Of a DNA stretch of 64,000 nucleotides, positions 1,529-19,020 are shown piece by piece. The number at the start of each line of letters is the position of its first letter. Positions within the stretch are counted from its first letter, which is position 1. The notes under the pieces were generated by a model. The model searched no databases, had not been told where the DNA came from, and saw only the letters and a list, made by a program, of their open reading frames with translations. The DNA comes from Limihaloglobus sulfuriphilus. GTDB taxonomy: Bacteria > Planctomycetota > Phycisphaerae > Sedimentisphaerales > Sedimentisphaeraceae. The stretch is from contig NZ_CP019646.1 of NCBI RefSeq assembly GCF_001999965.1, positions 3,410,001-3,474,000 of the forward strand. Reading direction: 5' to 3'. The position numbers and the translations under genes are program-made.

Positions 1529-2386
1529 TTATTTCGGCATAAAACTGTCAACTAAAGCCTTGTTGTCGGCTATCCACTGTTTTGCGACAGCGGCTTCGTT
1601 GCCCTTTGCTTCAGACATCTTGAGAAGAAGATCACTCATCTGAGAGTCATCAAGCGTGAAGTTAGCCAGCAATTCCGCTGCAAACGGGTCGTCCGTTTCG
1701 AGTCCCTGTCTGGCCCAGGTTTCAATTGTTTCTGTTTCACCGTAGGTGCCTTTTGGGTCTTCAAGGTATTTCAGTTCCCAGCGGGCAAACTTGAAGTGCG
1801 GCGACCAGCCGGTTACCACGATCCAGTTGTTTTCGCCGATAGCTTTTTGAAGTTCGCTGAGCATAGCAACACCGGAAGAGGGCATCAGCTCAAGTTTCAG
1901 GCCGTAACTCTCGGTAGCTTCCTGTGTTTTCTTCATGATGCCGGCACCGCTGTCGATACCTACGATCCTGCCGTTGAATTTTTCAGCGTTGTCGTTAAGC
2001 TCGGTTATCGAGTCGATCGTAACATACTGAGGCACAACCAGCCCGATGCGGGCACTGTCATAGTTGGTTCCCAGCTTGACTATCTTCTCGCCGAATTTCT
2101 TTACTTTTTCGCCATGCGTAACGGGCATCCATGTGTCCATAAACGCGTCCACGTCGCCGCGTGCCATCGATGCGAAAATCAGGTCAACGGCGGCTTTCTG
2201 AACAGTTACGCTGTAGCCGCTGCTCTCGAGCATATCTTTCATGACATACGTCATTGCAGGGCCCTCTGCCCAGCCCTCGACATAGGCGAGTGTGATTTCT
2301 TTAGTTTCCTCGGCTGTTTCAGTCTTACAGCCTGCAAATACTGCCATCAAGGCCGCAATTACAATAACTAAACTTTTCAATTTCAT
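1529..2386 (-). CDS. opuAC: Glycine betaine ABC transporter substrate-binding lipoprotein
   Basis: A 285-residue periplasmic binding protein of the OpuAC/ProX family. The N-terminus is a lipoprotein signal with lipobox ending at Cys20 (MAVFAGC), so it should be membrane-anchored. Aromatic motifs expected to form the cage for the quaternary ammonium group are present: VEGWAEG near residue 36, DTWMPVTHGE near 83 and GWSPHFKFARW near 195, followed by the family-typical LKYLEDPKGTYG. It delivers glycine betaine or a related osmolyte to the OpuAB/OpuAA complex. It is 33 bp downstream of opuAB in the same operon. The exact substrate (betaine, proline betaine, choline) is not decided by sequence. 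Confidence 0.9.
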   Translation of the reverse strand: MKLKSLVIVIAALMAVFAGCKTETAEETKEITLAYVEGWAEGPAMTYVMKDMLESSGYSVTVQKAAVDLIFASMARGDVDAFMDTWMPVTHGEKVKKFGEKIVKLGTNYDSARIGLVVPQYVTIDSITELNDNAEKFNGRIVGIDSGAGIMKKTQEATESYGLKLELMPSSGVAMLSELQKAIGENNWIVVTGWSPHFKFARWELKYLEDPKGTYGETETIETWARQGLETDDPFAAELLANFTLDDSQMSDLLLKMSEAKGNEAAVAKQWIADNKALVDSFMPK

Positions 2387-2419
2387 TTTTTACCTTTCTT
2401 TGTTTAACAATTATTAAAT

Positions 2420-3250
2420 TTATTCATGTTCCTGTTTGCCGAAGGCCTGGGTGATTCTGTCCAGGATAATGGCAAGAATCACAACGGAGAGGCCGCTTTC
2501 AAAGCCCAGCCCGATATTGAGATTGTTGATGCCCTCGAGCACCTTCTCACCCAATCCGCCGGCGGCAATCATTCCCGCGATTACCACCATGGAAAGCGCC
2601 ATCATGATCGTCTGGTTTACTCCGGTAAGTATGGTCTTCAGCGCCAGGGGCAGCTCAACCTTAAATAGAAGCTGCGTGCCTGTCGCTCCAAAAGCCCGTG
2701 CCGCCTCAACCACATCGGAGGGAACCTGTTTTATTCCCAGCGATGTAAGCCGCACTGCCGGCGGCATAGCGAAGATGATCGTGGCAAAAGCGCCTGGCAG
2801 CTTGCCGATGCTGAAGAACAGCACTGCCGGGATCAGGTACACAAACGCCGGCATTGTCTGCATGAAGTCCAGAATCGGGCGGATTATCTTCTCCGCCAGC
2901 AGGCTCTTTGACATCAATATCCCAAGCGGTATAGCAATAACCAGAGCGACAAATGTCGATGTGACTATCAGAGCCAGCGTTTCCATCGTCTCCACCCAGA
3001 AGCCCAGCAGGTAAATAAATACCAGGCCTATTACAGTGAAAACCGCCATGCCTTTGCCGACCTTGAAGAAGGCTAGCAGAGCGAGCAAGAAGATGAGGAC
3101 GTAGAACGGTGTAAACATCAACACGCTCTCCGCACCTTCGATCAGGCCGTTGCCTATCATTCGTATAAAGTCAAAGAATCCGCCAAAGTTTTCTGTCAGC
3201 CAGTTTACAGCTGATTCTACGTATTTGCCTATATCTATTATTTTTTCCAT
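2420..3250 (-). CDS. opuAB: Glycine betaine ABC transporter permease
   Basis: A 276-residue polytopic inner-membrane permease of the ProW/OpuAB type. The N-terminal part has an amphipathic segment and transmembrane helices around residues 40-80. The binding-protein-dependent permease core follows (about 88-270) with the EAA loop visible as VEAARAFGATGTQLLFKVELPLALKTILTGVNQTIMMALSMV split over the cytoplasmic loop. It forms the membrane channel of the importer. Its start lies 1 bp after the opuAA stop, so translation is probably coupled. Length fits the ProW core rather than the OpuAB-AC fusion, and the binding protein is encoded separately here. Confidence 0.92.
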   Translation of the reverse strand: MEKIIDIGKYVESAVNWLTENFGGFFDFIRMIGNGLIEGAESVLMFTPFYVLIFLLALLAFFKVGKGMAVFTVIGLVFIYLLGFWVETMETLALIVTSTFVALVIAIPLGILMSKSLLAEKIIRPILDFMQTMPAFVYLIPAVLFFSIGKLPGAFATIIFAMPPAVRLTSLGIKQVPSDVVEAARAFGATGTQLLFKVELPLALKTILTGVNQTIMMALSMVVIAGMIAAGGLGEKVLEGINNLNIGLGFESGLSVVILAIILDRITQAFGKQEHE

Positions 3251-3251
3251 T

Positions 3252-4490
3252 TTATTGCTCGTTTAAGTTTTCTTTGAGTTCTTCTATTTGTTCACGATCG
3301 AAACTGGTTGCCTCTACGATCAGTGAAATCTGCGTTACAATGCCTTTGAGTTTGCCGCTTTGCTCGTCCGTAACCGCCACGGGCGCCTCTGTGCCGGTTA
3401 TCAGCGGCAGCATCTGCTCAACCGTAGCATCCGGATTTACCATCGGACCCTGTGTCTGGATAAACTCTTTTATGCTGTGTTTCTTTTCTTTGTGTGCCCC
3501 TACCAGGTCTTTGAGCCAGACAAAACCTTTGAATATGTGGTCATTGTCAACAACGGGCAGTACCTCTACGGAAACTTTTCTCATTTTCCTTATGGCAACC
3601 TCTACACCGTCTCTTTCATATTGAGCGACCTGGGGCTTTTCAAACATCAGGGTGTTTGCAGTGATGATGGATTTTCTGTCAACGTTGCTTACAAATGCCT
3701 GGACGTATTCGCTGGCCGGCTCTGTAAGGATATCCTCGGCAGTTCCGATCTGCTCAATAAAGCCGTCTTTCATGATGGCTATACGGTCGCCGAGTTTTAT
3801 GGCTTCATCAAGGTCATGCGTGATGAAAACCACGGTTTTTTTGAGCTTGTTCTGCAGCTCCAGGAGCTGATCCTGCATATCCGCACGGATCAGCGGGTCC
3901 AGGGCTGAGAACGCCTCGTCCATAAGCAGCACTTCAGGGTTATTTGCCAGCGCCCTGGCCAGGCCTACTCTCTGCTGCATACCGCCGGAGAGCTGAGAAG
4001 GGTACTGGTTTTGAAACCCTTCAAGACCGACAGTGTTTATCGAGTCCTGTGCGATCTCAAGGCGTTTTGCGCCGCTCTCGCCGCGTATCTCAAGCCCGAA
4101 AGCCACATTGTCTATGATTGTTTTGTGCGGCAGCAGACCGAATTTCTGAAAAACCATACTCATTTCGGTTCTTCTGGTTTCCAGCAGCTCTTTGTCTGAT
4201 TCTTTTGTAATGTTTCTGCCGTTTACTATTACATCGCCGGCGGTAGGCTCTATGAGCCTGTTTAAACACCGAAGCAGTGTTGACTTACCGCTGCCCGAGA
4301 GTCCCATTACAACAAATACCTCACCTGTCTTGATGTCAAAACTGGCCTTGTTGACACCAACTGTACAGCCGGTTTTCTCAAGTATTTCATTTTTTGAAAC
4401 ACCCTGGTCAAGCATTTTCAGCGCTTCGGCGCGTTTCTTGCCGAAGATTACAGTAATGTCTTTGAGTTGTATTTTAATGTTATCTTTCAT
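3252..4490 (-). CDS. opuAA: Glycine betaine ABC transporter ATPase with CBS domains
   Basis: A 412-residue ATPase of the ProV/OpuAA type. Walker A GLSGSGKST is at residues 63-71, the Q-loop FQK near 114, the ABC signature LSGGMQQR at 167-174 and Walker B LLMDE at 188-192. The C-terminal third (about 270-410) carries a CBS pair, which in OpuA systems senses ionic strength or binds c-di-AMP. The ATG at 4488-4490 is chosen because a TTG 24 bp upstream lies in the T-run of the leader terminator. An AGAGA stretch precedes the ATG by about 5 nt. First gene of the opuAA-opuAB-opuAC-porin operon; transcription must pass the attenuator at 4513-4572. Confidence 0.93.
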   Translation of the reverse strand: MKDNIKIQLKDITVIFGKKRAEALKMLDQGVSKNEILEKTGCTVGVNKASFDIKTGEVFVVMGLSGSGKSTLLRCLNRLIEPTAGDVIVNGRNITKESDKELLETRRTEMSMVFQKFGLLPHKTIIDNVAFGLEIRGESGAKRLEIAQDSINTVGLEGFQNQYPSQLSGGMQQRVGLARALANNPEVLLMDEAFSALDPLIRADMQDQLLELQNKLKKTVVFITHDLDEAIKLGDRIAIMKDGFIEQIGTAEDILTEPASEYVQAFVSNVDRKSIITANTLMFEKPQVAQYERDGVEVAIRKMRKVSVEVLPVVDNDHIFKGFVWLKDLVGAHKEKKHSIKEFIQTQGPMVNPDATVEQMLPLITGTEAPVAVTDEQSGKLKGIVTQISLIVEATSFDREQIEELKENLNEQ

Positions 4491-4512
4491 AGCATTCTCT
4501 AAAAATCTTTCC

Positions 4513-4572
4513 AAAAAAAAAGCACTCTAACTCTTTAAGCCGGGTAAATTCCAGCTATAGAGTTAGAGTGCT
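4513..4572 (-). terminator. Leader terminator/attenuator before opuAA
   Basis: On the minus strand a perfect 14-bp inverted repeat (arms 4559-4572 and 4521-4534) encloses a 24-nt loop. It is followed at once by nine T residues (complement of 4513-4521) and ends only 22 bp before the opuAA ATG. This is the layout of an intrinsic terminator inside a 5' leader, which implies regulated read-through. The upstream leader segment corresponding to plus 4609-4619 can pair imperfectly with plus 4566-4575, which would sequester the first arm and act as an antiterminator. That pairing was done by eye. Confidence 0.85.
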
Positions 4573-4573
4573 T

Positions 4574-4740
4574 AAGCTTAATTTCGTTACTTTTACGAAA
4601 GTTGGCATTTAACCACCTCAATTAGTCGTGATTAAGTTCCGGGCCATCAGCAATTTCATGCTGACCCTGGAACAAGCCCCAGTTCTATATTAAAATACAT
4701 TTTTCACAAAAGGTTTCGGTTACCTTAGCGCTTACAAAGA
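4574..4740 (-). ncRNA. Candidate riboswitch-like structured leader of the opu operon
   Basis: The minus-strand RNA upstream of the attenuator holds several nested helices. GTTCC (minus of about 4667-4671) pairs with GGAAC (about 4635-4639). Inside it GGG pairs with CCC and TCAGC with GCTGA around an ATGAAATT loop. A separate small hairpin TTTCGT/ACGAAA lies at about 4583-4601. I could not match it to the consensus of the SAM-I, TPP, glycine or ydaO (c-di-AMP) classes as I know them. A Na+-responsive or c-di-AMP-linked class would be plausible because of the osmolyte genes downstream, but this is inference. The leader boundaries are approximate. Confidence 0.55.
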
Positions 4741-5065
4741 AAGTTGATGATTGTACCTTTTCTTTATTCGCAAAAAGCCTACTACTGTTTTGCTACTTCA
4801 TGAACTAAAACACCATTATACCAAATGCCGAAAGCATATCAACCAGTTTTTTTGTCAAATTTGTATGCGGCGTTTTGAAAATACCCAAAAAGCGAAAGTT
4901 TTTCTTTTTATACAGCGACCGTTTTGGCGGGTTTATACATACCGGATAGAAATTTTCTCCTCAGGCCCGCCCGTCGGGTCAAAAATTTAAAGCATTTTCT
5001 ATAAATGGTTTACGTGTAAATATGTTTGTATTTAAATTTATTTTTATTTTTTTTGAACTAAATGC
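4741..5065. other. Intergenic spacer between the divergent opu operon and the 16S gene
   Basis: AT-rich, with no convincing coding sequence. A 79-codon open frame on the plus strand lacks a ribosome site and resembles nothing known. The minus-strand promoter of the opu operon should lie in or just below this stretch. Weak candidates such as TACAAT (minus, near 4750) are visible but none has a good -35 partner. Confidence 0.5.
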
Positions 5066-5093
5066 TTGACCTCCGTGTATATCCGTTTATACT
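5066..5093 (+). promoter_or_regulatory. Sigma-70 type promoter of the 16S rRNA gene
   Basis: TTGACC (5066-5071) and TATACT (5088-5093) are separated by 16 bp and precede the mature 16S by about 270 bp, a normal distance for an rRNA leader. An AT-rich tract (5031-5060) sits just upstream, as an UP element would. Confidence 0.7.
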
Positions 5094-5100
5094 TATGCGT

Positions 5101-5131
5101 CTCTACAGTGATAGAGATTTGTTCTTTTACA
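5101..5131 (+). promoter_or_regulatory. boxB/boxA-like antitermination site in the rRNA leader
   Basis: A small hairpin CTCTA-N6-TAGAG (5101-5116) is followed closely by TGTTCTTTTACA (5120-5131), which resembles the boxA consensus TGCTCTTTAACA bound by NusB-S10. A second boxA-like copy, TGCTCTTTATAACA, occurs after the 16S at 6959-6972. This is the expected arrangement for rRNA antitermination; assignment rests on motif similarity only. Confidence 0.5.
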
Positions 5132-5361
5132 AGTTAACAGTTGTACGTCAAATTAAGCGCCATGGAAGTGAGTCTTTCGGGGCACGGTTACGCAACACGC
5201 CGTCCCTGGGAGTATAGAAAACTAAAAACACAGGTGTGTTTTAAATTCTTGACACTTCCGTGCGTAGAAGTGTTGAGCCTAAAGTTGAGTGAGACTAATC
5301 CTCTCATTTAACGTCAATTTATAAGAACCGGATAATTTATTATCCGAGCCTATAAAGAATC

Positions 5362-7078
<1,717 letters not shown>

Positions 7079-7134
7079 CAAGAGACATTTTTACAAGTAA
7101 AATAAGGTTCTAATGTTGTTATACAGGTGAATCC

Positions 7135-7293
7135 ATGACAGACAAAGCTTATAAAACACTGCTAAAAGAGCTGAAAAAAGAGGCCCAAAAAGCCAAACAC
7201 AACAGCAAGGAAGAAGCTATTGCTACACTTCACAGAATAGGTATCTGCACAAAAACAGGAAAGCTGAAGAAGCCTTACCGGACTGCTAAGTAA
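7135..7293 (+). CDS. Small basic protein upstream of ART-like gene (possible antitoxin)
   Basis: A 52-residue, lysine-rich protein (starts MTDKAYKTLLKELK, ends KLKKPYRTAK). It has a predicted helical first half and a HRIGICTKTGKLK segment that looks like the start of a small folded or DNA-binding unit. The preceding GGTGAATCC gives a ribosome site. Its TAA overlaps the ATG of the next gene (TAATG), so the two are translationally coupled. The small-upstream/large-downstream layout is typical of toxin-antitoxin pairs, but no antitoxin family could be named. Confidence 0.6.
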   Translation: MTDKAYKTLLKELKKEAQKAKHNSKEEAIATLHRIGICTKTGKLKKPYRTAK

Positions 7294-7904
7294 TGTATTC
7301 TGTATTGCCTTCATTTGTTCTGGGGTTTCACGGTTGTGATGAATCTGTGGCTGAGGATGTCTTTTCAGGCAGGGCTGAATTAAAATTTTCAGATAACGAT
7401 TACGACTGGCTTGGCAACGGCATATACTTTTGGGAAAATAATCCCGTCAGGGCTCTTGAATTCGCAAAACAGGTAAAGCTGTTTCCTCAAATATCTCGGG
7501 GTAAAGTTAAGAAAGCCGCAGTAGTTGGTGCTATTATTGATTTGGGGCATTGCTTAAATCTGCTCGATTCCAAATTCATAGAGTTTTTAAAATTTGGTTA
7601 CGAAGTGGTAGCTGAAAATATTAAACAGTACGATGAGCCAATGCCGGAAAACACCCCTGTAAAACGGGATGGCGACTTGCTTATAAGGCGCCTCGATTGT
7701 GCAGTTGTTGAAGCCGTGCACGAGAAACAGGATTGGCTGGTTGAAAAGGGAAAGGCCGATTACAAATTCGATACAACACGCGGAGTTTTTATAGAAGGAA
7801 AAGAGATTTATCCCAATTCAGGGTTCAGGGACAAAAATCATATCCAAATATGTGTGAGAAATCCAGCTTGTATCAAGGGTTATTTCAGGGTGAGGAGTGA
7901 ATGA
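7293..7904 (+). CDS. ADP-ribosyltransferase-fold-like protein (DUF3990-like), putative toxin
   Basis: A 203-residue protein. The N-terminal part shows GFHGCD (residues 11-16), then DYDWLGNGIYFWENNPVRALEFAKQ (about 45-69). This histidine-glycine pair followed by G.G.YFWE and an A..FA helix resembles the H-Y-type core of PARP/ART-fold enzymes in the DUF3990 group. An acidic third catalytic residue could be the Glu in VVEAVHE (about 145). No signal peptide or membrane segment. The gene overlaps the small upstream ORF by its start codon. Proposed role is NAD-dependent modification of a cellular target, held in check by the small partner. The fold call is by motif and the substrate is unknown. Confidence 0.5.
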   Translation: MYSVLPSFVLGFHGCDESVAEDVFSGRAELKFSDNDYDWLGNGIYFWENNPVRALEFAKQVKLFPQISRGKVKKAAVVGAIIDLGHCLNLLDSKFIEFLKFGYEVVAENIKQYDEPMPENTPVKRDGDLLIRRLDCAVVEAVHEKQDWLVEKGKADYKFDTTRGVFIEGKEIYPNSGFRDKNHIQICVRNPACIKGYFRVRSE

Positions 7905-7953
7905 TCTATTGCTATATTTTTCTGATGTTGATTAGATCGAGTTGAGGTGAAAG

Positions 7954-8121
7954 ATGATAAAATTCGAATGCCCGGTATGTAACCATTTACTATGCGCACA
8001 AGATGAGCAGGTGGGGACCACTCATAAATGCCCTAATTGCGGAGAAGTGTTGAAAGTTCCATTAACATGTGACTTAAAAGAGGAGTTTACACAACAAACA
8101 GCACTATTCAATTGTTTTTGA
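7954..8121 (+). CDS. Zinc-ribbon protein, probably 5' part of a frameshifted HNH gene
   Basis: A 55-residue frame beginning MIKFECPVCN with a second pair CPNCG at residues 26-30, a classical zinc ribbon (CxxC-N16-CxxC). The ATG follows GAGGTGAAAG, a good ribosome site. The frame stops at TGA 8119-8121 within a T-rich run. The frame one base back continues without interruption into a transmembrane segment and an HNH domain (8112-8552). Zinc ribbon, membrane helix and HNH nuclease in one chain is plausible, so a one-base indel or a -1 frameshift at the GTTTTTGA run may separate them. It could also be an independent small protein. Confidence 0.5.
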   Translation: MIKFECPVCNHLLCAQDEQVGTTHKCPNCGEVLKVPLTCDLKEEFTQQTALFNCF

Positions 8122-8552
8122 CTTTTTTAAGCATGGGTGTTGGAGGTTCAGTTGTGTATATATGGGCTCTCTTTGATATATTATTAGTAAAACATGATAG
8201 TGATGGGCATCCTTTCTGTAATTTGTTTTCATCTGATCTTAAGCATATGTCAAGTGGATCTTTACAGCTGTATAGGATTTCTAAAGAGACGAGCAGTTTC
8301 AATAATCGAAATATAATAAGCAATGATGAATACAAAGGTTCGTTAAAAACAAAAAGAGTGAGAAAACCCATACCCGAAAAAGTGAAACATGAAGTTTGGA
8401 GAAGGGATCAAGGTAAGTGCGTTTGTTGTGGTAGTAATGAAAATCTGGAATTTGATCATATTATACCACACAGTAAGGGTGGAGCAGACACCGCTAGAAA
8501 TTTGCAGCTGCTGTGCCAAAGCTGCAATCGAAAAAAAAGTGATAGTATTTGA
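8112..8552 (+). CDS. HNH endonuclease domain protein (5' end uncertain, frameshift suspected)
   Basis: The open frame covers 146 codons but has no good start: TTG 8112 or ATG 8133, neither with a ribosome site. It begins with a hydrophobic helix (LTFLSMGVGGSVVYIWALFDILL), then a spacer. The C-terminal 60 residues are a clear HNH nuclease: KHEVWRRDQGKCVCCG, then NLEFDHIIPHSKGG with the catalytic DH, and NLQLLCQSCNRKKSD with the second zinc pair. This domain nicks or cuts DNA in restriction and mobile-element proteins. It lies in the island between the duplicated 16S ends and ends 20 bp before the second copy. Confidence 0.6.
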   Translation: MFLTFLSMGVGGSVVYIWALFDILLVKHDSDGHPFCNLFSSDLKHMSSGSLQLYRISKETSSFNNRNIISNDEYKGSLKTKRVRKPIPEKVKHEVWRRDQGKCVCCGSNENLEFDHIIPHSKGGADTARNLQLLCQSCNRKKSDSI

Positions 8553-8571
8553 AAGTCTTCAAAATTAAATG

Positions 8572-8684
<113 letters not shown>

Positions 8685-8790
8685 ATTATGGGGATGATGT
8701 TGAGCAATTGTGCTCTTTATAACATCTAAAAAACCCCAAATGTCAGCCATTTTACAGGCGGGTGACGACAACTGTTATTTGATAATTAAA

Positions 8791-8823
8791 AGCCCTCGAG
8801 CAGAAATGCCCGGGGGCTTTTTT
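8791..8823 (+). terminator. Second copy of the 16S terminator
   Basis: Same 12-bp stem and GAAA loop as 7039-7072, with six T residues. It probably now terminates the HNH/ART island transcript. Confidence 0.85.
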
Positions 8824-8832
8824 CGTTGCGAG

Positions 8833-8892
8833 ATGGTCAGTCTGATCAGACAGATCGGACTGATTGATCTGACGGATCAGTCTGATTGGTCG
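8833..8892. repeat. Cluster of short interleaved GATC-containing repeats
   Basis: The words TCTGATC, CAGATCGGACTGAT, GATCTGACGGATCAG and TCTGATTGGTCGG follow each other as near-repeats and near-palindromes of a core like (C/G)GATCAGTCTGAT. It sits immediately after the duplicated terminator and is not coding. The origin is unknown; it may be a degenerate intergenic repeat family. Confidence 0.5.
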
Positions 8893-9044
8893 GATAACAA
8901 CCCACTTCAACCAAAGGGAAAATCAATTCGCCGGCAATCATAGCTGAAAAAGCCCTTGATATTTGGTAAAGAGTTTGTATAAATTACATCTCTGCCGGAA
9001 AATCCGGCGTTTTTTGGCTGTTAATCAGTCTGAAAGGTCAGTAT

Positions 9045-9998
9045 ATGTTTGAACGCGGCAATATAATTACAGTTGGTATTCGCCCGGCCTGGGATGTTGT
9101 ATGTTCGGCCGATGGTATCGAGTGGGGCGATCATAAGGTTCTTGACGCCAGGACAAGCGTACCTGCCGGCAAGGCTCTCAATGTCTCCAAGGCGCTTGCC
9201 TGGCTTGGTTATCCAAGCATCGCGACAGGCCTGTGGGGGCAGGAAGATTATGACGAGATGGCGGAGCAGCTTCGGCCTCTGAGCAGTTTTATCGATATCC
9301 GTTTCGCCGCGGTTCGCGGGCATACCAGACAGAATATAACCCTTCGGGATACCAGGAAAAACCGTGAAATGCATCTTCGCCTTCCCGGAACTCTTGCCAA
9401 CAAGGGCTCAATCCGCCGCATGTCTGATCAGCTTTTGCGAATGATCGACAAGGATGATGTACTCGTATTCGGCGGAAGTATGCCGGAAGGTGCACTGCTT
9501 GAGGAGGTTGTCTCGCTTATCTGGGACTGCAAACAGAAGCATACAAACATCATACTCGATACCAGCGGAACAGCTCTCGAGAGGTTGGTAAGCAGCGGGC
9601 AGATATCGCTGATTTCACCTAATATCACAGAGCTTGAAAACCTGCTCAATTGCAGGGTAAAAGAAGATCCGCAGGCTGTATTACGTGCCGGCAGGCGCCT
9701 TCTGGATAAGGTTTCTGCTTTGATTGTGAGCCTGGGCTCTGAAGGTGCGGTTTTTATCAGCCGCGATGAGTGCTGGCATTCTTTTTATGCCGGTGCTGAC
9801 AGGGATGTGCTCAAGACCGTTGCCGGCGGAGATTATCTGCTTGCAGGTTTTATCGCCGGCATGAAAGAAAATCCAAGCCCTGAATACGCCCTGACAAAGG
9901 CAGTCCGGCTTGCTACCGGATTTGTTTTCGGCCTTTGCAAAGACCATGAGCCGTGGCAGCTTGATGAAATGCTCGAAATAGAAACGAACCACTTGTAG
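9045..9998 (+). CDS. PfkB-family sugar kinase (1-phosphofructokinase-like)
   Basis: A 317-residue ribokinase/PfkB-fold kinase of the FruK/LacC subgroup. N-terminal substrate site PAGKALNVSKALAWLG is at about 41-56, the middle FGGSMPEG near 142-149, and the C-terminal signature TVAGGDYLLAGF near 265-276. The catalytic Asp is kept, but the usual GAGD anion-hole motif reads AGGD. It would phosphorylate fructose-1-phosphate, tagatose-6-phosphate or a similar sugar phosphate with ATP. The AAAGGT ribosome site is 8 nt before the ATG. No PTS genes are near, so the in vivo substrate is open. Confidence 0.8.
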   Translation: MFERGNIITVGIRPAWDVVCSADGIEWGDHKVLDARTSVPAGKALNVSKALAWLGYPSIATGLWGQEDYDEMAEQLRPLSSFIDIRFAAVRGHTRQNITLRDTRKNREMHLRLPGTLANKGSIRRMSDQLLRMIDKDDVLVFGGSMPEGALLEEVVSLIWDCKQKHTNIILDTSGTALERLVSSGQISLISPNITELENLLNCRVKEDPQAVLRAGRRLLDKVSALIVSLGSEGAVFISRDECWHSFYAGADRDVLKTVAGGDYLLAGFIAGMKENPSPEYALTKAVRLATGFVFGLCKDHEPWQLDEMLEIETNHL

Positions 9999-10127
9999 GC
10001 CGCAGGGGTATAGATAATACGTGATGTGCGGCTGACGTTGTTCGTGCGGGTTTAATACCTCCAGACGGAACGGATATACAGCTTTCATATCAAAGATTAA
10101 CCGTAAACAATTATAAACGATGGACAT

Positions 10128-10949
10128 ATGCATTTTGTAAGAAATATATTAGCCCTGCCGCTTCGACTCGCGGCCGTTATCGCGGGATTGATCCCCATAG
10201 TTGATGTCGGCACAGTGCTGCACTTGATACTCCGTGTTACCGATGATCCGGAAGACGGGCTGCGTTATTTAGCGTACGGGCTCACTCGTTTTGGTTATGC
10301 TGAAATGGAGCCGGTTGCACAGAAACTCATGGAGCGTTACCGTGACAGCAGATTTGCCGAGATGATGGGCAACGCGGCCTTTTTCAAGAATAACAAAATT
10401 TCTGCCAAAGAGTGGACTCTCGCGGCTGAATACGCAGACTGTACGAATCTTGAGATGCTTCTCGGGCTCAAATACCAGCTCAGCCTTGATGAGCCCAAAG
10501 AAAAGCGGCTTGCTATTCTCGACGAAATTATTTCCCGCCGCGACCTGCCGATGGCTATCAGCCTTCAGGCCTATCCGATACGCTGCTACAGTTTTCTGCT
10601 TGAGCGTGAATGGGGCAAGGCTGTGAAGCTGGCAGAAAAGATTCTCCAGATAATCGAAAGCCCGATGGCCCACCTGGCAAACTACTGCAAATATTATACT
10701 GCCGGCAAAGATGAAGCGGCGTTTAAGGAGCTTTGTGACGCTCAGCGTCTGTGGCAAATGGGGCCGTTTGAATCTGTGGGAGCCCAAATTTGCTATGTCG
10801 CAGGCGATATGTACAGGGCCTGTGAGTATCTGGCGATGGCTATAGACGGCGGCTTTGACCCTGACAAGGCGGGAGAGGAATGGAAAGAGCTCGCGCAAAG
10901 TGATGATTTTAATAGATTTATGGATCAAAGGCAGGCGGGCAATGATTAA
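10128..10949 (+). CDS. Helical-repeat (TPR-like) protein with N-terminal membrane anchor
   Basis: A 273-residue protein I do not recognise as a named family. Residues 1-30 are hydrophobic (ALPLRLAAVIAGLIPIVDVG) and look like a membrane helix. The rest is a run of amphipathic helix pairs with A/Y/L spacing such as RYLAYGLTRFGYAEMEPVAQKLMERY and REWGKAVKLAEKILQII, consistent with tetratricopeptide-like repeats. Its stop overlaps the start of the M50-type protease homologue (ATGATTAA), so they are co-translated. It may act as an adaptor for that membrane protease; this is inference from the coupling only. Confidence 0.6.
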   Translation: MHFVRNILALPLRLAAVIAGLIPIVDVGTVLHLILRVTDDPEDGLRYLAYGLTRFGYAEMEPVAQKLMERYRDSRFAEMMGNAAFFKNNKISAKEWTLAAEYADCTNLEMLLGLKYQLSLDEPKEKRLAILDEIISRRDLPMAISLQAYPIRCYSFLLEREWGKAVKLAEKILQIIESPMAHLANYCKYYTAGKDEAAFKELCDAQRLWQMGPFESVGAQICYVAGDMYRACEYLAMAIDGGFDPDKAGEEWKELAQSDDFNRFMDQRQAGND

Positions 10950-11571
10950 CTTAACCTTTTTGCTGTATCTTTTCCCCGGCTTGATAATCGGACTGACTTT
11001 TCACGAGGCGGCACACGCCTACAGCGCGCTGCTGCTTGGCGATAAAACGGCTTACAAGATGGGGCGGGTCAGCCTTGATCCGCTCAGGCATCTTTCGCCG
11101 CTTGGAACTCTTGCGTTGTTTTTCCTGGGCTTTGGCTGGGGAAAACCGGTTTTGATAAATGTGTTTAATTTCGAGAGGCCGCGGCGTGATTATCTGCTCA
11201 GCTCGCTTGCAGGCCCCGGCGCTAATCTGCTCATATGTCTGGCTATCTGGCTGATGCTGCGGCTCCCGATGCCGGATCAAGTAAAAGCCTTTCTTGTAGG
11301 GACTTACCTTATTAACGGTATCCTGGCGGTTTTGAATCTTATTCCGATATCGCCTCTTGACGGCAGCAAGATATGGCCCTGCATCATACCCGGCATGAAA
11401 ATCGTCAACCCTTCGAGGTTCAGGATGACCGGCCTGATAATCCTGCTTCTGCTGATTTTTACCGGCGGTATCGCTATGGTTCTCGATCCCGTGCTGGGCT
11501 TTATGCTCGATGCCCTGATGGACAAGAGCCTGGTAAACACATTTTATGAGGTTGTAAAGGTTAAGGCATAG
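10942..11571 (+). CDS. Site-2 protease (M50) family membrane metalloprotease
   Basis: From the ATG at 10942 the protein has 209 residues and about five membrane helices. The zinc motif HEAAH is at residues 21-25 in the first helix. The second metal site, NLIPISPLDGSKI (consensus NxxPxxPLDG), lies near 135-147. It belongs to the small, PDZ-less S2P branch that cuts membrane-embedded substrates. A longer frame starting at 10855 overlaps the upstream gene by 95 bp and is rejected. The chosen start overlaps it by only 8 bp and is preceded by a purine-rich stretch. Confidence 0.85.
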   Translation: MINLTFLLYLFPGLIIGLTFHEAAHAYSALLLGDKTAYKMGRVSLDPLRHLSPLGTLALFFLGFGWGKPVLINVFNFERPRRDYLLSSLAGPGANLLICLAIWLMLRLPMPDQVKAFLVGTYLINGILAVLNLIPISPLDGSKIWPCIIPGMKIVNPSRFRMTGLIILLLLIFTGGIAMVLDPVLGFMLDALMDKSLVNTFYEVVKVKA

Positions 11572-11588
11572 CCCCTGCGGCCTGCCGC

Positions 11589-12764
11589 TTAAATTATACT
11601 GCGGTACACGGCCTCTACCGTCTGGGCCATTCGCCGCGGCGTAAACATCTCCCGCACTAAGTCTTGGCCGTTTTTGCCGAGTTGTTTTCTTAAATCCTCG
11701 TCTGAGAGTAGTTTATCGCAGGCGTCAACCAGAGCAGGAATGTCTCTGGGCGGCAGCAGAAAACCGGTGTTCTCGTTAATGACCTCCTTTGCCCCGTCAA
11801 TATCAAAGCTGACCGCGGGCGTTGCGCATAGCAGCGATTGCGGCAATACCCTTGCCAGCCCCTCGCGCAGTGAGCAGTGCACCAGTATGTCGCTTGAGTG
11901 TATAACCAGCGGTATCATCGAGGGTTCTAACAGACCTGTAAACCGAAAACGGTCCGTGAGATTCGCGGCGTCTATCATATCGCGAAGTTTCGCTTCCAGC
12001 AGTCCGCTGCCGACAAAGAGCCAGATGCAGTCGGGGTGCTTCTCTGCCAGCTCACGGGCTGACTGTATGACGTATTCATGTCCCTTGAGATCTGCCAGCC
12101 GGGCGATTTTTACGATAACCTTCGCGTCTTGCGGGATGTTATATTTTTCCCGAAATTGAGCGATTGTCTCGGGCTGGGGCGGCTGGAGAAATTCCTCAAC
12201 CTCCATCGCCGAGTAGGCAGTTGTGTACATATCTTTGCTGCCGATACCTCTGGCCAGAGATTTCTCCGCCATTGTGTCCGCTACGCACACGTAGGCATCT
12301 GTTTTTTTCGCGTAATGGCGTTCCAGCAGGATGTATATCCAGTTTATAATTGCCGGTTGGTATTCGTGGAAGGGCAGGCCGTGTACGCCGTGCACAATCA
12401 GCGGCCTATGCCGGCCGTTATCTGTTTTTCGCCTGATTGCCGCGCCGGCGGCCCTGCCCAGGATTCCAGCCTTTGCCGAATGGGTGTGGATTATGTCAGG
12501 GTCAAGGTCTCTTAGAACGCTTTTCAGAGCAAAAAAGCCTTTAAGCTCTTTGCAGGGGCGTATTTGGCGAACAAGCTGGGGGACGTTTATGACTTCTATG
12601 CCCCAGGCTTTGGCCGTTTCAATCAGCGTGCCCTCGCCCCGCCGGTCATCGCCGGTTATGAGTGTAACCTCATGGCCGTCTTTTTTCTGCTCGCGGCAGG
12701 TTATAAGCGTGTTTTCCTGTGCCCCGCCAATCACGAGACGTGTTATTATATGAACTATTTTCAT
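11589..12764 (-). CDS. Glycosyltransferase family 4 protein
   Basis: A 391-residue GT-B enzyme. The N-terminus MKIVHIITRLVIGGAQENT has the acceptor-domain glycine loop. HTHSAKAGILGRAAG (about 96-110) and VHGVHGLPFHEYQP (near 128) match the Gly_transf_4 domain, and the C-terminal half (KVIVKIARLADLKGHEY onwards) is the nucleotide-sugar domain. The usual EX7E motif appears as EGLARVLPQ, so the second glutamate is not conserved. It probably transfers a hexose in cell-surface polysaccharide or LPS-like assembly. No neighbouring glycan genes fix the pathway. Convergent with the M50 gene, with only 17 bp between stops. Confidence 0.85.
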   Translation of the reverse strand: MKIVHIITRLVIGGAQENTLITCREQKKDGHEVTLITGDDRRGEGTLIETAKAWGIEVINVPQLVRQIRPCKELKGFFALKSVLRDLDPDIIHTHSAKAGILGRAAGAAIRRKTDNGRHRPLIVHGVHGLPFHEYQPAIINWIYILLERHYAKKTDAYVCVADTMAEKSLARGIGSKDMYTTAYSAMEVEEFLQPPQPETIAQFREKYNIPQDAKVIVKIARLADLKGHEYVIQSARELAEKHPDCIWLFVGSGLLEAKLRDMIDAANLTDRFRFTGLLEPSMIPLVIHSSDILVHCSLREGLARVLPQSLLCATPAVSFDIDGAKEVINENTGFLLPPRDIPALVDACDKLLSDEDLRKQLGKNGQDLVREMFTPRRMAQTVEAVYRSII

Positions 12765-13187: not shown

Positions 13188-14444
13188 TTATAAACTGTTA
13201 ACATTATAGTTTCTTATGTATTCAATTGGTTTTTTAGAAACTTTTTCTATTTTATGTTCATTCTCTGCGCGTGTGAGCCAATTTTTTATTTGGTTTTTCG
13301 ACACATCGAGCTGCTTAGCCAGCTCGCCAGGCTTTACGCGAGTTTCTGTCATTTCCAGTATTAACGGCAAAACAACATCATAAGCTGATCTTGAATTTTT
13401 TTTTGGTTTTTTCTCATTTTTCTTCTCAATTTTATCTATTTTCCCCTTATCTATCGCAGACGGCTCTTGTTTATAATCAAAAAGTGTCTTACTGCCGAGC
13501 TTAGTGGTGTTTGACAAAGAATCCAGTTTTTCTGTGAAGTTTCTCTGGTCAATATCATTCGGAAACTCAACAGCACCTGACTCCAGCAGCATTAGGTTGC
13601 CTTTTGGAACATTTTCCCCATTTCTAACAAATACCGGACGATGCTGTTCTCTTCTTAGCTCTTCTTTTGCACCTGCCCAGGTTCCTCCGGTCTTGTATTC
13701 AGAGCTTACAATCAAGGCGTAATCGGCCATAGCATAAATCAGCTTGTTACGTGCCATTGCAGTTCCAACACTAAAACCGGCTTTGGGGTGATATGGAGAA
13801 ATAAGCAGCAGTCTGCCATCAGTAATCGCAATTCTGGCAGCTGGTTCGAGACTTTTTTTCAAAAGGCTGTCAGCAAGAACACCTATACAAACTCCATTAG
13901 CCTGTAAAACCGTTGACATAGCGTTGATGTCAACCCCGCGAGCCCCTCCCGAAATCACAGGCATATTATTCAAAGCGCATAACTCTGCTGCTGTTTGCGC
14001 AAAAATCTTTCCCTCTTCATCTACATTTCGCGACCCGACTATGGCAAGGCCGCCTCCTTGAAGTAAGTGTTTTTCGCCAATTCCGAACAAAAGCGGAGGA
14101 GCCTTGTCCTTTAGATGTTTCTTGTATCTCTGGGGATAATCAGGGTCGCTTCTGCTTATAACCCACACACCGTTATTCTGCCAATCTTCCAGAGCAAAAC
14201 CCAGTTGGACACCCCTGCTCATCAGTGAATCAAGGCGGGATTGCTCAATTCCAGAGCCTTTTGATGCGTCTGATAGAACATCGTGTTTGAGCATATCTTC
14301 AGGGCGTAAACCGGCTTGAACCAGCCAACCGACCAGTTTGTTATATTCCGTTTGGGTAAGAGGACTCACTGATCTGTCTTTGCCAAATACACCGCAGAGC
14401 ATGATTATAACTTTTGTGTCATTAGTTAGATAATTATTATGCAT
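13188..14444 (-). CDS. DprA/Smf-family DNA-processing protein with C-terminal winged helix
   Basis: A 418-residue protein. The Rossmann core is at about 100-310 with GSRNVDEEG, SGGARGVDINAMS and ARNKLIYAMADYALIVSSEYKTGGTWAGA, the landmarks of the DprA/LOG fold. The C-terminal 70 residues (LPLILEMTETRVKPGELAKQLDVSKNQIKNWL) form a winged helix after a lysine-rich linker. The start is 4 nt after the RecQ-PRTase stop, so the two are translationally coupled. DprA normally loads RecA on incoming ssDNA. Coupling to a PRTase protein instead resembles ShosA, the DprA-like antitoxin of ShosTA. Whether it is a competence or a defence protein is undecided. Confidence 0.8.
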   Translation of the reverse strand: MHNNYLTNDTKVIIMLCGVFGKDRSVSPLTQTEYNKLVGWLVQAGLRPEDMLKHDVLSDASKGSGIEQSRLDSLMSRGVQLGFALEDWQNNGVWVISRSDPDYPQRYKKHLKDKAPPLLFGIGEKHLLQGGGLAIVGSRNVDEEGKIFAQTAAELCALNNMPVISGGARGVDINAMSTVLQANGVCIGVLADSLLKKSLEPAARIAITDGRLLLISPYHPKAGFSVGTAMARNKLIYAMADYALIVSSEYKTGGTWAGAKEELRREQHRPVFVRNGENVPKGNLMLLESGAVEFPNDIDQRNFTEKLDSLSNTTKLGSKTLFDYKQEPSAIDKGKIDKIEKKNEKKPKKNSRSAYDVVLPLILEMTETRVKPGELAKQLDVSKNQIKNWLTRAENEHKIEKVSKKPIEYIRNYNVNSL

Positions 14445-14448
14445 AAAA

Positions 14449-16569
14449 TTAATCCATTCTTGGAGAATTCATTGCCAACGCCAGGGGGTAAACTGCCTTG
14501 CAGCCGGCCTGACGAAGCAAAGCTGCCGCAACGGTAAAGGTCCACCTTGAATCGACTACATCGTCAATCAGTAAACAGGGTGCAAAAGTGCCATTATCAA
14601 TTGTAAGTTTGAAAACACCATCCAGATTAGCTGCCTGCTGATAGCTGTTTTCCATTTCCTTTTGGGGCATGTTTTGCCTTACCTTTTCAAAACACATTCC
14701 AAAGCGAAGTCCCAGCTTTTCTGAAAGTCTTCGTGCAAAATCAGGAACCAGCTCCGGCCGGTTAAGCGAAGGGATACATGTGGCCCATTTTGGTTTTGGT
14801 TCAGGTGCCCACTTTTCATACATTTGGGCACAGGCCGAGACCAAATCATCACAAAAACGTTCACTCTGGTACTTGCCGTCTGCTGCAAGTTGCCCCCAAC
14901 CGGCATCTCTCCAAAGGCTCAAAGCTCTGCCTTCTGACAAACGCTGTTGATCGCTAATAGAACCAGTAAAACCGTAAACCTTCAGGGGATTGCCTGCCGG
15001 CCATTGCAGACGCGGCTTAATAGGAATATAACATCTCTTCAGAAAAAGATTCGCCTCCTGAGCCAGCTTTAAATCGTACTTTTCTTCGAGAAGCTGCTGC
15101 GGAGTGCAGTTTTTGCACATACCGCATTTTTGCGGGCGAGGATCATCCAGTGCGGACTGCAAAAAAGCCATAAGGCATCCGTCATGGCGCATATATGACC
15201 GCATCTGTTCCTGTTCATCTCTTCTTAGCCTGGTGATCATCTCAACATGGCTCCTGTTAACCGAATAATCTGAAGCAGCCGGTGTTAAGTACCACTTGGA
15301 GTCCATTTTAATAACCGGTGCCGGAGATTCAATCGTTAAGAATTTTAAGGTCTTTTCAATTTGTGAATATTTTAGATTCAGCTCCGCCATAAGAGACGGT
15401 GTTGATATCCCTGTATTTGCTTTAGTGACGGCTTGGAGCACAGTCTCTATATGTCGCTGAGGTGGAAAAGCGGTCTGAATAAAATAATCAGATATCCTGT
15501 CATCCTCCTCTCCGCAGAGCAAAATTCCATACGCCTGGTCAACTGCTCGGCCGGCCCTGCCCACCTGTTGGTAATAGTGAACCACAGATGCGGGGCGCTG
15601 ATAATGTATTACAAAACCTAAATCGGGTTTGTCAAATCCCATACCGAGAGCCACTGTAGCAACAAGAACCTTGATCTCATTATTCAGCAGCGACTGCTCA
15701 AGCTGTTGTCGGCTCCTGCCGCCGGGCTCTTTTTCAGACATTCCCGCATGATAGGCTTGAGCAGAGATCCCGTTTTGCTTCAGCCATTGCGCTACACGCA
15801 CAGAATCTCGCTGGGTCAAAGTGTAAACAATACCGCTGCCGGGGAGTCTGGGGATTGTGCCCGCAAGCCAGGCCATTCTTGCCGCTGTGTCCGGCATTAT
15901 AATATTCTGCAATTTAAGGCTTTTTCGGACAAGCGTGCCGCGGACAAAACCTATATCTCCGCCTAACTGTGTTTTAACGTCGTTTACAACCCTGTCATTT
16001 GCCGTTGCAGTCGTGGCAAGTATCGGCACATTCGGAGGAATGGCCTGAATAACTCTGATAATCCGCCGATAATCAGGGCGAAAATCGTGTCCCCAGTCAG
16101 AAATGCAATGAGCTTCATCAACGACAAGCATTCCGATCTTTGAGGCCACATGGGATAAAATGTTTTCCCGAAAAACCTGGTTTGCAAGCCGCTCTGGTGA
16201 TATTAAGAGTATGTCAACTCTGTCATTTTTCAGATCACTTTCAACTTTATCCCATTCCTCAACATTGCTGCTGTTTATAGTGCACGCGCTGAGGCCCAGC
16301 CTATTGGCTGCTTCAAGCTGATTTCGCATTAAAGACAACAATGGCGAAATTAATAAAGTTAAACCTTTGCCTTGTTCCCGCAGCAGCTTAGTACCAAGAA
16401 AATACACCATGCTTTTGCCCCAGCCGGTGCGTTGAACAACCAATATTCTCCGGCGATTCAGTAAAAACTCAATGCTCTGCCACTGCCCATCCCTGAAAGC
16501 AGCCTTTTTGTCATCAAGGGCAGTCTGCAATAACTGCAAAGCATATTTTTGTGTAGGAATTGAATGCAT
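14449..16569 (-). CDS. RecQ-family DNA helicase fused to a phosphoribosyltransferase domain
   Basis: A 706-residue protein from the ATG at 16567-16569; a TTG two codons upstream is less likely. Helicase motifs: RTGWGKS (47-53), DEAH (151-154), ATTATA (motif III), YHAGMSEKE and QQVGRAGRA (motif VI). A RecQ zinc site follows (CLMAFLQ then CGMCKNC). The last 120 residues are a type I PRTase: LLIDDVVDSRWT is the PRPP loop preceded by a KVRQNMPQKEME segment similar to ComF. RecQ-PRTase chains are known in scattered bacteria. It begins 12 bp after the ftsK stop and is coupled to the dprA-like gene, suggesting DNA-end processing or a defence function. Confidence 0.85.
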   Translation of the reverse strand: MHSIPTQKYALQLLQTALDDKKAAFRDGQWQSIEFLLNRRRILVVQRTGWGKSMVYFLGTKLLREQGKGLTLLISPLLSLMRNQLEAANRLGLSACTINSSNVEEWDKVESDLKNDRVDILLISPERLANQVFRENILSHVASKIGMLVVDEAHCISDWGHDFRPDYRRIIRVIQAIPPNVPILATTATANDRVVNDVKTQLGGDIGFVRGTLVRKSLKLQNIIMPDTAARMAWLAGTIPRLPGSGIVYTLTQRDSVRVAQWLKQNGISAQAYHAGMSEKEPGGRSRQQLEQSLLNNEIKVLVATVALGMGFDKPDLGFVIHYQRPASVVHYYQQVGRAGRAVDQAYGILLCGEEDDRISDYFIQTAFPPQRHIETVLQAVTKANTGISTPSLMAELNLKYSQIEKTLKFLTIESPAPVIKMDSKWYLTPAASDYSVNRSHVEMITRLRRDEQEQMRSYMRHDGCLMAFLQSALDDPRPQKCGMCKNCTPQQLLEEKYDLKLAQEANLFLKRCYIPIKPRLQWPAGNPLKVYGFTGSISDQQRLSEGRALSLWRDAGWGQLAADGKYQSERFCDDLVSACAQMYEKWAPEPKPKWATCIPSLNRPELVPDFARRLSEKLGLRFGMCFEKVRQNMPQKEMENSYQQAANLDGVFKLTIDNGTFAPCLLIDDVVDSRWTFTVAAALLRQAGCKAVYPLALAMNSPRMD

Positions 16570-16581
16570 TCTCAAATAGTA

Positions 16582-19020
16582 CTATCCACTTTCCTGTTCT
16601 TTTTTGATTTCTTCCCACTGCTCCATTGTCAGCATTACCTCGCGTGCCTGTGCGTTTTTGTGTTCGCCGAGTATGCCGTACTCTGCCATCATTTCAATAA
16701 GCCGCTGTGCACGGTTGTAGCCGACGCCGAGTTTTCGCTGGAGCAGTGAGCCGCTGCCTCGTTGGTTCTCAAGGACCACACGCACCGCATCATCAAAGAG
16801 CGGATCCAGCGGCGTCTCACCCAGCTCGATTCTGTCAAGCTGCATAAGCTCCGGGTGGAACTGGGGCTGTGCGACATCTTTGAGGTGGCGGATAATCCGT
16901 TCTATCTCCTCGTCCTCGAGGTATGCTCCCTGTGCACGGTATATCTTGCTGGTTTTCGGGTGCAAAAACAGCATATCTCCCTTGCCCAGCAGTGTTTCTG
17001 CGCCTGTCTGGTCGAGAATGATACGGCTGTCCAGCCCCGTCGCCACCTTGAAGCTGATACGCGCGGGCAGGTTAGACTTGATCAGGCCGGTTACCACGTC
17101 GCGCTGGGGCCGCTGGGTCGCCAGAACCATGTGAATACCAACAGCACGGGATTTCTGGGCGAGCCGGACAATATGGTCCTCAACCTCGCGGTTTGTCATC
17201 ATCAGGTCAGCCAGTTCATCGACAATAATAACGATATAGGGCAGCTTCTTGGGTATTCTTGCTTCGTCCTCTTCGGTCTGCGGGTCAAACCGTTCGATAA
17301 GCTGTTTCCGTGTGAGTCTGTTGTAACTTGATATATCACGGGCTTTTGCATCACGGAAAAGAATGTATCTTTCTTCCATTTTCTCCACCGCCCATGCCAG
17401 TATTCTCTCGGCCTTTGCCATTTCCGTCACCAGAGGGCACATCAGATGGGGCAGTTCCTGATACGGGGTCATCTCTACCATCTTCGGGTCAACGAGGATC
17501 ATCTGCACCTCGTCGGGCCGCTTGGTCAGCAGTATGCTGGTGATAATGTCGTTTACGCAGACACTTTTTCCCGAGCCGGTCGTGCCCGCGATCAGGCAGT
17601 GGGGCATATCGGCCATATCGGTAACGATGGCGTCTCCCGAGCTGTCCTTGCCGAGAAACAGCGGTATCTTCATATCATGCGGCTTCGAGCCCGCACGCAG
17701 TATCAAATCTTTTAGCCTCACCACTTCGCGGATTTTGTTGGGAACCTCGATTCCCATTGTCTGGCGGCCGGGCATGGAGCTTATGATACGTACATTTGGT
17801 ACGCCCAGCGTACGTGAAAGGTCAACCTTGAGCTTTGCGATGTCGTTTACCTTGACGCCGGCACCGAGGTCTATCTCAAAGAGCGTGATGGTCGGGCCCG
17901 GCTCTGCGCCGACAACCTTTGCGTCAACGTTGAAATTCTCAAAGGCGTAACAGAGCTGGTCAATCTGGCCGCGTACCTGCGACTCGATGTCGGTATTGAA
18001 ATCATCCTCGGGCTCCTCGAGCAAATCCAGCGGTGGCAGTACATAATCTTCGTAGGTCTTCTGGATAAATGGCTCTCGTTTTTTCGAGCCGACGGGGGGA
18101 AGCACAATTTTTACCTTGTCAACTTCGCTCGCGTTACGTTCCTGCATGTCTGCCATCTCTTCTTCAGCCTCTTCGTCTTCCGGCTCATACGGAATTCCTC
18201 CGGGCTCATCACTTTCGGGAGCGGGGGTTTGGTCTTTGTCACTGTCAAAGAGTTCCTTGGAAGAAAGATTATCGTCTGCGGCCTGGACATATTGGCCCTT
18301 TTTCGCGGCTTTTAGCGCCCGTTTTTCCGCAGCTTTTGCCCTTTTGGCAGCCATCTTGGCTTCTTTCATTGCTTCTTTGGCGGCTTTTTTCTCTTCTTTG
18401 AGTTTTTGGCGGAGCTGTTCTTTCTCGTTCTCTTTTTGTTGTTTTTCCTTGATACGCTCGTCGGCGCCTTTTCCGGTAAATAGCCGTAAGATAAAGTAGA
18501 ATATAGATTTATAAACAGCTATAGCCAGAGAGTCAGCCAGCAGGATACTGCCGACAATAAAGGACATGATTACGATAGGCCATGAGCCGAAGGTAGCGAA
18601 GTTGGCCTTTAGAATAGCGGCGAAAAACAGCCCCAGAATCCCGCCTCCGCCGGCAGGGAAGTGGGATGGAAAGATACCCGAGGTAAAGTTAGCTATCACA
18701 GAAACGCTGATAACGCAAAGCAGCAGCCCGATTGTCCTTAGAACCGGCTGGGTAATCTGGCGGCCGCGGATCGCAACCACTGTAAATCCGCTTAATCCCA
18801 GCAGCAGCATATAGATACCAGCTCCGATGTAATAATTTATGTGAAACGAAACCCATGCGCCGACCGGACCGAAGATGTTCTCGGGCTTTTCGTTCAGCGG
18901 CCAGACAAACTCGCTGGGCTTATCCGCGATATCAAAATCCAGGCACGCCGCCGCTATCAAAACGAACAGAAACAGCAGTACAACGAGCAGGAGTTTGAGT
19001 ACTATGGTTTTATGCTGCAT
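16582..19020 (-). CDS. ftsK: DNA translocase FtsK/SpoIIIE
   Basis: An 812-residue hexameric DNA pump for chromosome segregation at the septum. The first about 190 residues have four or five membrane helices. A charged coiled-coil linker rich in K, E and A follows (about 190-250), then an acidic segment. The motor carries GTTGSGKS (Walker A, about 475) and VIIVDELADLMM (Walker B), with LATQRPQRDVV and the C-terminal gamma winged helix (SLLQRKLGVGYNRAQRLIEMMAEYGIL) that reads KOPS-like sites. Ends EQESG followed by TAG. It heads the co-directional ftsK-recQ-dprA-Dabb cluster. Confidence 0.95.
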   Translation of the reverse strand: MQHKTIVLKLLLVVLLFLFVLIAAACLDFDIADKPSEFVWPLNEKPENIFGPVGAWVSFHINYYIGAGIYMLLLGLSGFTVVAIRGRQITQPVLRTIGLLLCVISVSVIANFTSGIFPSHFPAGGGGILGLFFAAILKANFATFGSWPIVIMSFIVGSILLADSLAIAVYKSIFYFILRLFTGKGADERIKEKQQKENEKEQLRQKLKEEKKAAKEAMKEAKMAAKRAKAAEKRALKAAKKGQYVQAADDNLSSKELFDSDKDQTPAPESDEPGGIPYEPEDEEAEEEMADMQERNASEVDKVKIVLPPVGSKKREPFIQKTYEDYVLPPLDLLEEPEDDFNTDIESQVRGQIDQLCYAFENFNVDAKVVGAEPGPTITLFEIDLGAGVKVNDIAKLKVDLSRTLGVPNVRIISSMPGRQTMGIEVPNKIREVVRLKDLILRAGSKPHDMKIPLFLGKDSSGDAIVTDMADMPHCLIAGTTGSGKSVCVNDIITSILLTKRPDEVQMILVDPKMVEMTPYQELPHLMCPLVTEMAKAERILAWAVEKMEERYILFRDAKARDISSYNRLTRKQLIERFDPQTEEDEARIPKKLPYIVIIVDELADLMMTNREVEDHIVRLAQKSRAVGIHMVLATQRPQRDVVTGLIKSNLPARISFKVATGLDSRIILDQTGAETLLGKGDMLFLHPKTSKIYRAQGAYLEDEEIERIIRHLKDVAQPQFHPELMQLDRIELGETPLDPLFDDAVRVVLENQRGSGSLLQRKLGVGYNRAQRLIEMMAEYGILGEHKNAQAREVMLTMEQWEEIKKEQESG

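Follow-up and report, generated by a model that had tools for sequence, protein, structure and literature searches.

A probable, horizontally acquired PsyrTA (RqlHI) toxin-antitoxin/defence operon immediately downstream of ftsK, at a rearranged site, in Limihaloglobus sulfuriphilus

Two adjacent minus-strand genes of the planctomycete Limihaloglobus sulfuriphilus, located in a 64-kb stretch of contig NZ_CP019646.1 that was analysed as a whole (hereafter the window), very probably form a two-gene PsyrTA (RqlHI) toxin-antitoxin/defence operon that was acquired horizontally and that follows immediately after ftsK, where the surroundings have undergone rearrangement. The helicase gene, psyrT, comes first and the DprA-like gene, psyrA, follows directly downstream after a gap of 4 nt, which confirms the two open reading frames and the spacing given for them in a preliminary description of this DNA; the coordinate 16569 used there is an in-frame ATG that serves as an alternative psyrT start and would give a protein of 706 aa, as against 708 aa from TTG. 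The distance from the ftsK stop to the psyrT start is 6 nt (TTG) or 12 nt (ATG). The features of the locus, in window coordinates, are:

14449..16575, minus strand: psyrT (rqlH), RecQ-like SF2 helicase with a C-terminal PRTase domain, 708 aa from TTG
15454..16542, minus strand: RecQ-like helicase core, about residues 12-374 of PsyrT
16411-16425, minus strand: Walker A motif GWGKS in the PsyrT helicase core
16108-16119, minus strand: DEAH motif in the PsyrT helicase core
14452..15024, minus strand: PRTase domain of PsyrT, assigned from the PRPP loop, a homologue profile and Pfam in relatives
14548-14571, minus strand: PRPP loop LIDDVVDS in the PsyrT PRTase domain
13188..14444, minus strand: psyrA (rqlI), predicted DprA-like antitoxin, 418 aa
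13578..14183, minus strand: DprA Rossmann-type domain of PsyrA, residues 88-289 (Pfam DNA_processg_A)
13212..13385, minus strand: small C-terminal helix-helix-helix-beta-beta domain of PsyrA, residues 354-411, from the secondary structure of the model
16582..19020, minus strand: ftsK, upstream neighbour, outside the system

Both reading frames and all motifs checked in them are intact, and the pair appears from its sequence to be an ordinary, probably intact copy of the known PsyrTA/RqlHI toxin-antitoxin and phage-defence family. The PADLOC PsyrT model matches the helicase-PRTase protein with 961 bits (E 9e-290) over residues 9-704 of 708, and the PADLOC PsyrA model matches the DprA-like protein with 416 bits (E 3e-125) over residues 6-409 of 418; with both proteins matching near full length, no architectural difference was found from the PsyrTA of Pseudomonas syringae that these models represent. 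PsyrTA of P. syringae reportedly goes back to Sberro et al. 2013, a study that is cited in connection with PsyrTA in passages of PMC4670107 and PMC8790059. PsyrT and PsyrA share 51% and 33% identity, respectively, with the two members of a pair on an E. coli plasmid whose annotations read RecQ helicase and DprA. The preliminary description was therefore right about the type of module, a PRTase protein paired with a DprA-like protein in toxin-antitoxin or defence (PADLOC PsyrT/PsyrA), and wrong in suspecting a variant of ShosTA produced by helicase fusion, since the RecQ-PRTase fusion is the standard and already known architecture of PsyrTA/RqlHI and is not novel (PADLOC; PMC4670107).

That a ShosTA system had its PRTase newly fused to a helicase nevertheless deserves a hearing, because ShosTA likewise combines a PRTase protein with a DprA-like antitoxin and shows toxicity of the DNA-damage type, shosTA, syrTA and rqlHI are grouped as DprA-antitoxin systems in the relevant passage of Rousset et al. 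(2022; PMC9122126), and the PsyrA model resembles the solved ShosA structure 8zva (TM-score on target 0.71). However, the PADLOC ShosA models match PsyrA distantly, with 81 and 29 bits against 416 bits for the PsyrA model; ShosTA, where it is described in PMC9122126 and PMC12593503, is a PRTase plus a DprA-like protein without a helicase, whereas the PRTase here is fused to a RecQ-like helicase, and the fused architecture agrees with PsyrT from end to end. We accordingly give this origin hardly any credence; the likeness to ShosTA is refuted as a classification and stays true as an analogy. Other identities were rejected as well. Housekeeping RecQ and competence DprA have the helicase core and the DprA domain in common with the pair, but both proteins fall far below the curated equivalog cut-offs (294 bits against 640 for TIGR01389, and 94 bits against 191 for TIGR00732); the genome encodes a separate, stronger DprA match (243 bits, against 120 bits for PsyrA) and also has another RecQ-like match besides PsyrT. 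The Dpd system, with its DpdF helicase, was discarded at 148 bits against the 550 required (NF041063).

PsyrT contains the helicase motifs GWGKS, DEAH, TAT and QQVGRAGR and the Pfam domains DEAD and Helicase_C, and its AlphaFold2 model (mean pLDDT 87.5) matches the catalytic cores of RecQ, BLM and WRN over about residues 2-496; in whole-protein fold searches with this model the match list was filled by RecQ-type and other helicases. The C-terminal region is assigned as a PRTase because of its PRPP loop, because Pfam Pribosyltran reaches its cut-off in the same region of two relatives, and because a profile of the region from 20 homologues matches PRPP synthetases and HGPRTs (best E 5.6e-6). 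Within the loop, D154, D155 and D158 (A3-region numbering) are invariant across 20 aligned homologues. Pribosyltran on the window's PsyrT alone scores 15.8 bits, under the 26.3-bit cut-off, which was reached in two of the four relatives tested (Vibrio L030, 32.8 bits; E. coli L109, 42.2 bits) and missed in the other two (L003, 17.5 bits; L049, 18.9 bits). What had been called a ComF/PRTase domain with an intact PRPP loop thus keeps its loop and its PRTase assignment, the latter with the sub-threshold window score just given, and loses the ComF label, which no analysis supported. The model of PsyrA (mean pLDDT 88.3, with a low-confidence linker at residues 317-351) resembles DprA 3uqz with a TM-score on target of 0.81, and the fold of its small C-terminal domain suggests that this part may be winged-helix-like.

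PsyrT and PsyrA are the orthologues of RqlH and RqlI (Russell and Mulvey, 2015; PMC4670107), a pair of extraintestinal E. coli that likewise has a RecQ-like helicase-PRTase first, an adjacent DprA-like protein second and a PRPP pocket, and that differs from ours in that its function is experimental, where here it is inferred, and in host lineage and the ftsK site. As reported in passages of that paper, E. coli RqlH alone leads to SOS, filamentation and viability loss, this toxicity requires the PRTase domain and the PRPP pocket, and RqlI, encoded in one operon behind rqlH, binds RqlH and relieves its toxicity. Judged by these studied relatives, a toxin, PsyrT, acting through its PRTase and held by a DprA-like antitoxin is likely, and is the best-supported reading of the pair. 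PsyrT would then be a helicase whose PRTase uses PRPP and which would be genotoxic, with SOS, filamentation and viability loss, unless held by PsyrA, which would bind it directly. The antitoxin may sense single-stranded DNA, and, going a step further, the PsyrT-PsyrA complex might be perturbed when a phage or plasmid invades or when DNA is damaged; the PRTase released in this way could disturb nucleotides or DNA such that the cell stops before the invader spreads. Rousset et al. suggest, in a passage of PMC9122126, that phage DNA is sensed by DprA, which activates the PRTase. With reference to Pu et al. (2025), PMC12593503 describes ShosT as acting both as a phosphoribosyltransferase and as a pyrophosphatase and as disturbing the metabolism of purines, with ShosA binding DNA; the ShosTA mechanism is carried over to PsyrTA by analogy only.

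The same genes may alternatively make up a DNA-processing or repair unit, with a helicase that remodels DNA which is damaged or incoming and a DprA-like protein that loads on single strands; the toxicity seen elsewhere would then reflect no more than imbalance. Russell and Mulvey themselves, in a passage of their paper, propose that the two proteins act jointly on DNA to beneficial effect (PMC4670107), and part of a paper on polyvalent proteins connects the system either with the uptake of DNA or with a response of the SOS type (PMC5512222). The occurrence of PsyrT by itself also favours such a unit. A search for RecQ-PRTase plus DprA pairs and their context, proposed in the preliminary description, covered 85 other PsyrT loci, in 69 of which PsyrA was found by script directly downstream of PsyrT; when 13 unpaired loci were read, four more proved to be paired (L016, L018, L062 and L066), their ORF start having been set too far upstream. 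Three loci end at most 84 nt after PsyrT, leaving 82 that are testable, so that the corrected pairing is 73 of 82, against nine loci without PsyrA (L011, L017, L040, L047, L065, L072, L077, L079 and L082); in four of these nine the DNA downstream extends no further than 1.0-1.7 kb. PsyrT without a partner is thus real, and most rows of an unpaired list that still included L016, L018, L062 and L066 retain the DDxxDS of the PRPP loop (deviating loops are DELVDS in L072 and DDVILS in L077). RqlH without RqlI is, in turn, reported for 55.3% of strains in a passage of Russell and Mulvey (PMC4670107), which, together with these nine loci, argues that PsyrT is not always a toxin needing PsyrA. Two of the solo genes, both from Lentisphaerota (L011, 7989-10091, and L065, 2-1753), have the loop DDxVETGW in place of DDxVDSxW. 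Against a processing unit stand the sporadic distribution and the transfer between phyla detailed below, unlike a housekeeping role, and the genome's own dprA and additional RecQ-like match; we regard it as possible, though unlikely.

For a general defence role of the toxin-antitoxin pair, two observations count in favour, namely that a passage of PMC10121019, citing Millman 2022, counts PsyrTA as one of the immune systems of defence islands in E. coli, and that psyrTA is nested in type I restriction operons in some relatives. One counts against, a report in PMC12409345 that PsyrTA from E. coli NILS69, when cloned and tested in K-12 with 15 phages, conferred no detectable protection. PsyrTA is not uniformly active against phages. 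The nested arrangement, hsdM-hsdS-psyrT-psyrA-hsdR within a type I restriction-modification operon, was seen in three gammaproteobacterial records, an hsdM-like ORF being found by script at five of the 85 PsyrT loci, one of them a short piece only:

1679-11758, E. coli plasmid NZ_OX030731.1 (L109): nested psyrTA
4709-14668 of L030 and 4668-14656 of L054, from Vibrio furnissii and Providencia heimbachae: nested psyrTA

The distribution of PsyrT does not follow the host lineage. A survey of 59 family and order genomes, counting the window's own, returned no PsyrT in any of the 58 relatives (4 of the family, 54 of the order) at E 1e-60, and in the rest of the class 5 of 396 genomes have a match at E 1e-100, with 52-54% identity. 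Among the best 80 of 591 matches, the top ones in named genomes are 58-67% identical, and the hosts are Fibrobacterota, Kistimonas (Gammaproteobacteria), Desulfobacteraceae, Verrucomicrobia, Kiritimatiellae, SAR324 and cyanobacteria. Phage records gave no PsyrT match at E 1e-60, and plasmid records gave 13 at E 1e-100, each below 60% identity. In a PsyrT tree of 78 rows (the window and 77 of the 85 loci; L008, L010, L012, L036, L065, L078, L081 and L108, which are short, frameshifted, cut off or copies, were omitted), the window groups with Fibrobacterota, Kistimonas, Desulfobacteraceae and SAR324 (SH-aLRT 98), far from its class relatives. An AU test on the window, 31 of the 85 loci and four of the five class relatives (L108 was omitted as a fragment) rejected a clade of the window with these four (p-AU 1.45e-58), the group having been picked by taxonomy, yet after the first tree was seen. 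In GC content, psyrA ranks lowest and psyrT third-lowest among 32 hand-picked ORFs of the window.

The surroundings of ftsK have changed too. All four same-family genomes have ftsK directly followed by a pfkB kinase gene, after which comes a relative of the 273-aa gene found at 10128-10949 in the window, with an M50 peptidase next in the three that were read further (G002, G003 and G004), and in a genome of the same order (G025) pfkB still adjoins ftsK, the relative of the 273-aa gene and the M50 peptidase lying about 5 kb further on. Two order-level genomes read at length (G021 and G007) have no match to these pfkB, 273-aa and M50 neighbours at ftsK, and we therefore take the order to be ancestral, at the level of the family at least. 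In the window, pfkB, the 273-aa gene and the M50 peptidase occupy 9045-11571 on the opposite strand, the family order having been split off and inverted, and the stretch from this block to ftsK holds four genes, namely psyrT, psyrA, one with a Dabb domain and one for a glycosyltransferase; the inverted block and the four intervening genes mean that the site is rearranged. Universal conservation of the pair at ftsK in relatives, the outcome that the preliminary description had set against its proposal, is thus not what the family, order and class genomes display, the family having ftsK-pfkB instead. Absence from family and order, rarity in the class, incongruence in the tree and the AU test, low GC and the broken ftsK-pfkB order together are why we consider the pair horizontally acquired. 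Elsewhere in the window, a complete 16S rRNA gene (5362-6923, plus strand) has neither a 23S rRNA match nor a tRNA within the 64 kb, so that the rRNA genes look unlinked, and tandem genes at 30006-31943 and 31977-33914 (plus strand), for secreted-looking proteins of 645 aa that are 48% identical and nearly identical at their C-terminal ends, are a local duplication.

The claimed coupling to ftsK holds as adjacency and fails as a feature of the system. None of the 85 other PsyrT loci, with flanks of at least 1 kb upstream in 70 and at least 2.5 kb downstream in 64, has an ORF matching ftsK, the Dabb-domain gene or the glycosyltransferase gene. All three therefore stand outside the system, and the ftsK adjacency is only its location in this genome. 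A conserved ftsK-linked DNA-processing unit is ruled out by the distribution in relatives, the ftsK neighbours and those 85 loci. PADLOC defence models matched none of the ten flanking genes given, which places the pair outside any defence island. The short distance to the ftsK stop makes psyrTA probably dependent on ftsK transcription and, with the lack of defence neighbours, is what would be expected of a captured copy that is now domesticated or silent, read through from ftsK and devoid of a defence role in this host. Such a fate is improbable in our estimate, given the intact frames and motifs and the 19 of 70 other PsyrT loci that start at most 30 nt from an upstream same-strand ORF, which makes tight packing common in the family. 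It is very doubtful that in this lineage psyrTA has come under the control of ftsK, a gene of cell division and chromosome segregation, so that its output would follow division or the DNA-damage state and a defence toxin would be tied to the cell cycle.

What the sequence data show directly is that the pair belongs to the PsyrTA/RqlHI family, keeps the motifs and the gene order, occurs sporadically, has a tree incongruent with its host lineage, is low in GC and lies where local synteny is broken. We regard it as a real, horizontally acquired and probably functional member of that family. It presents a clear case of PsyrTA having crossed from one phylum to another, with a complete genome as recipient, close relatives that lack the pair and a resolved site of arrival.
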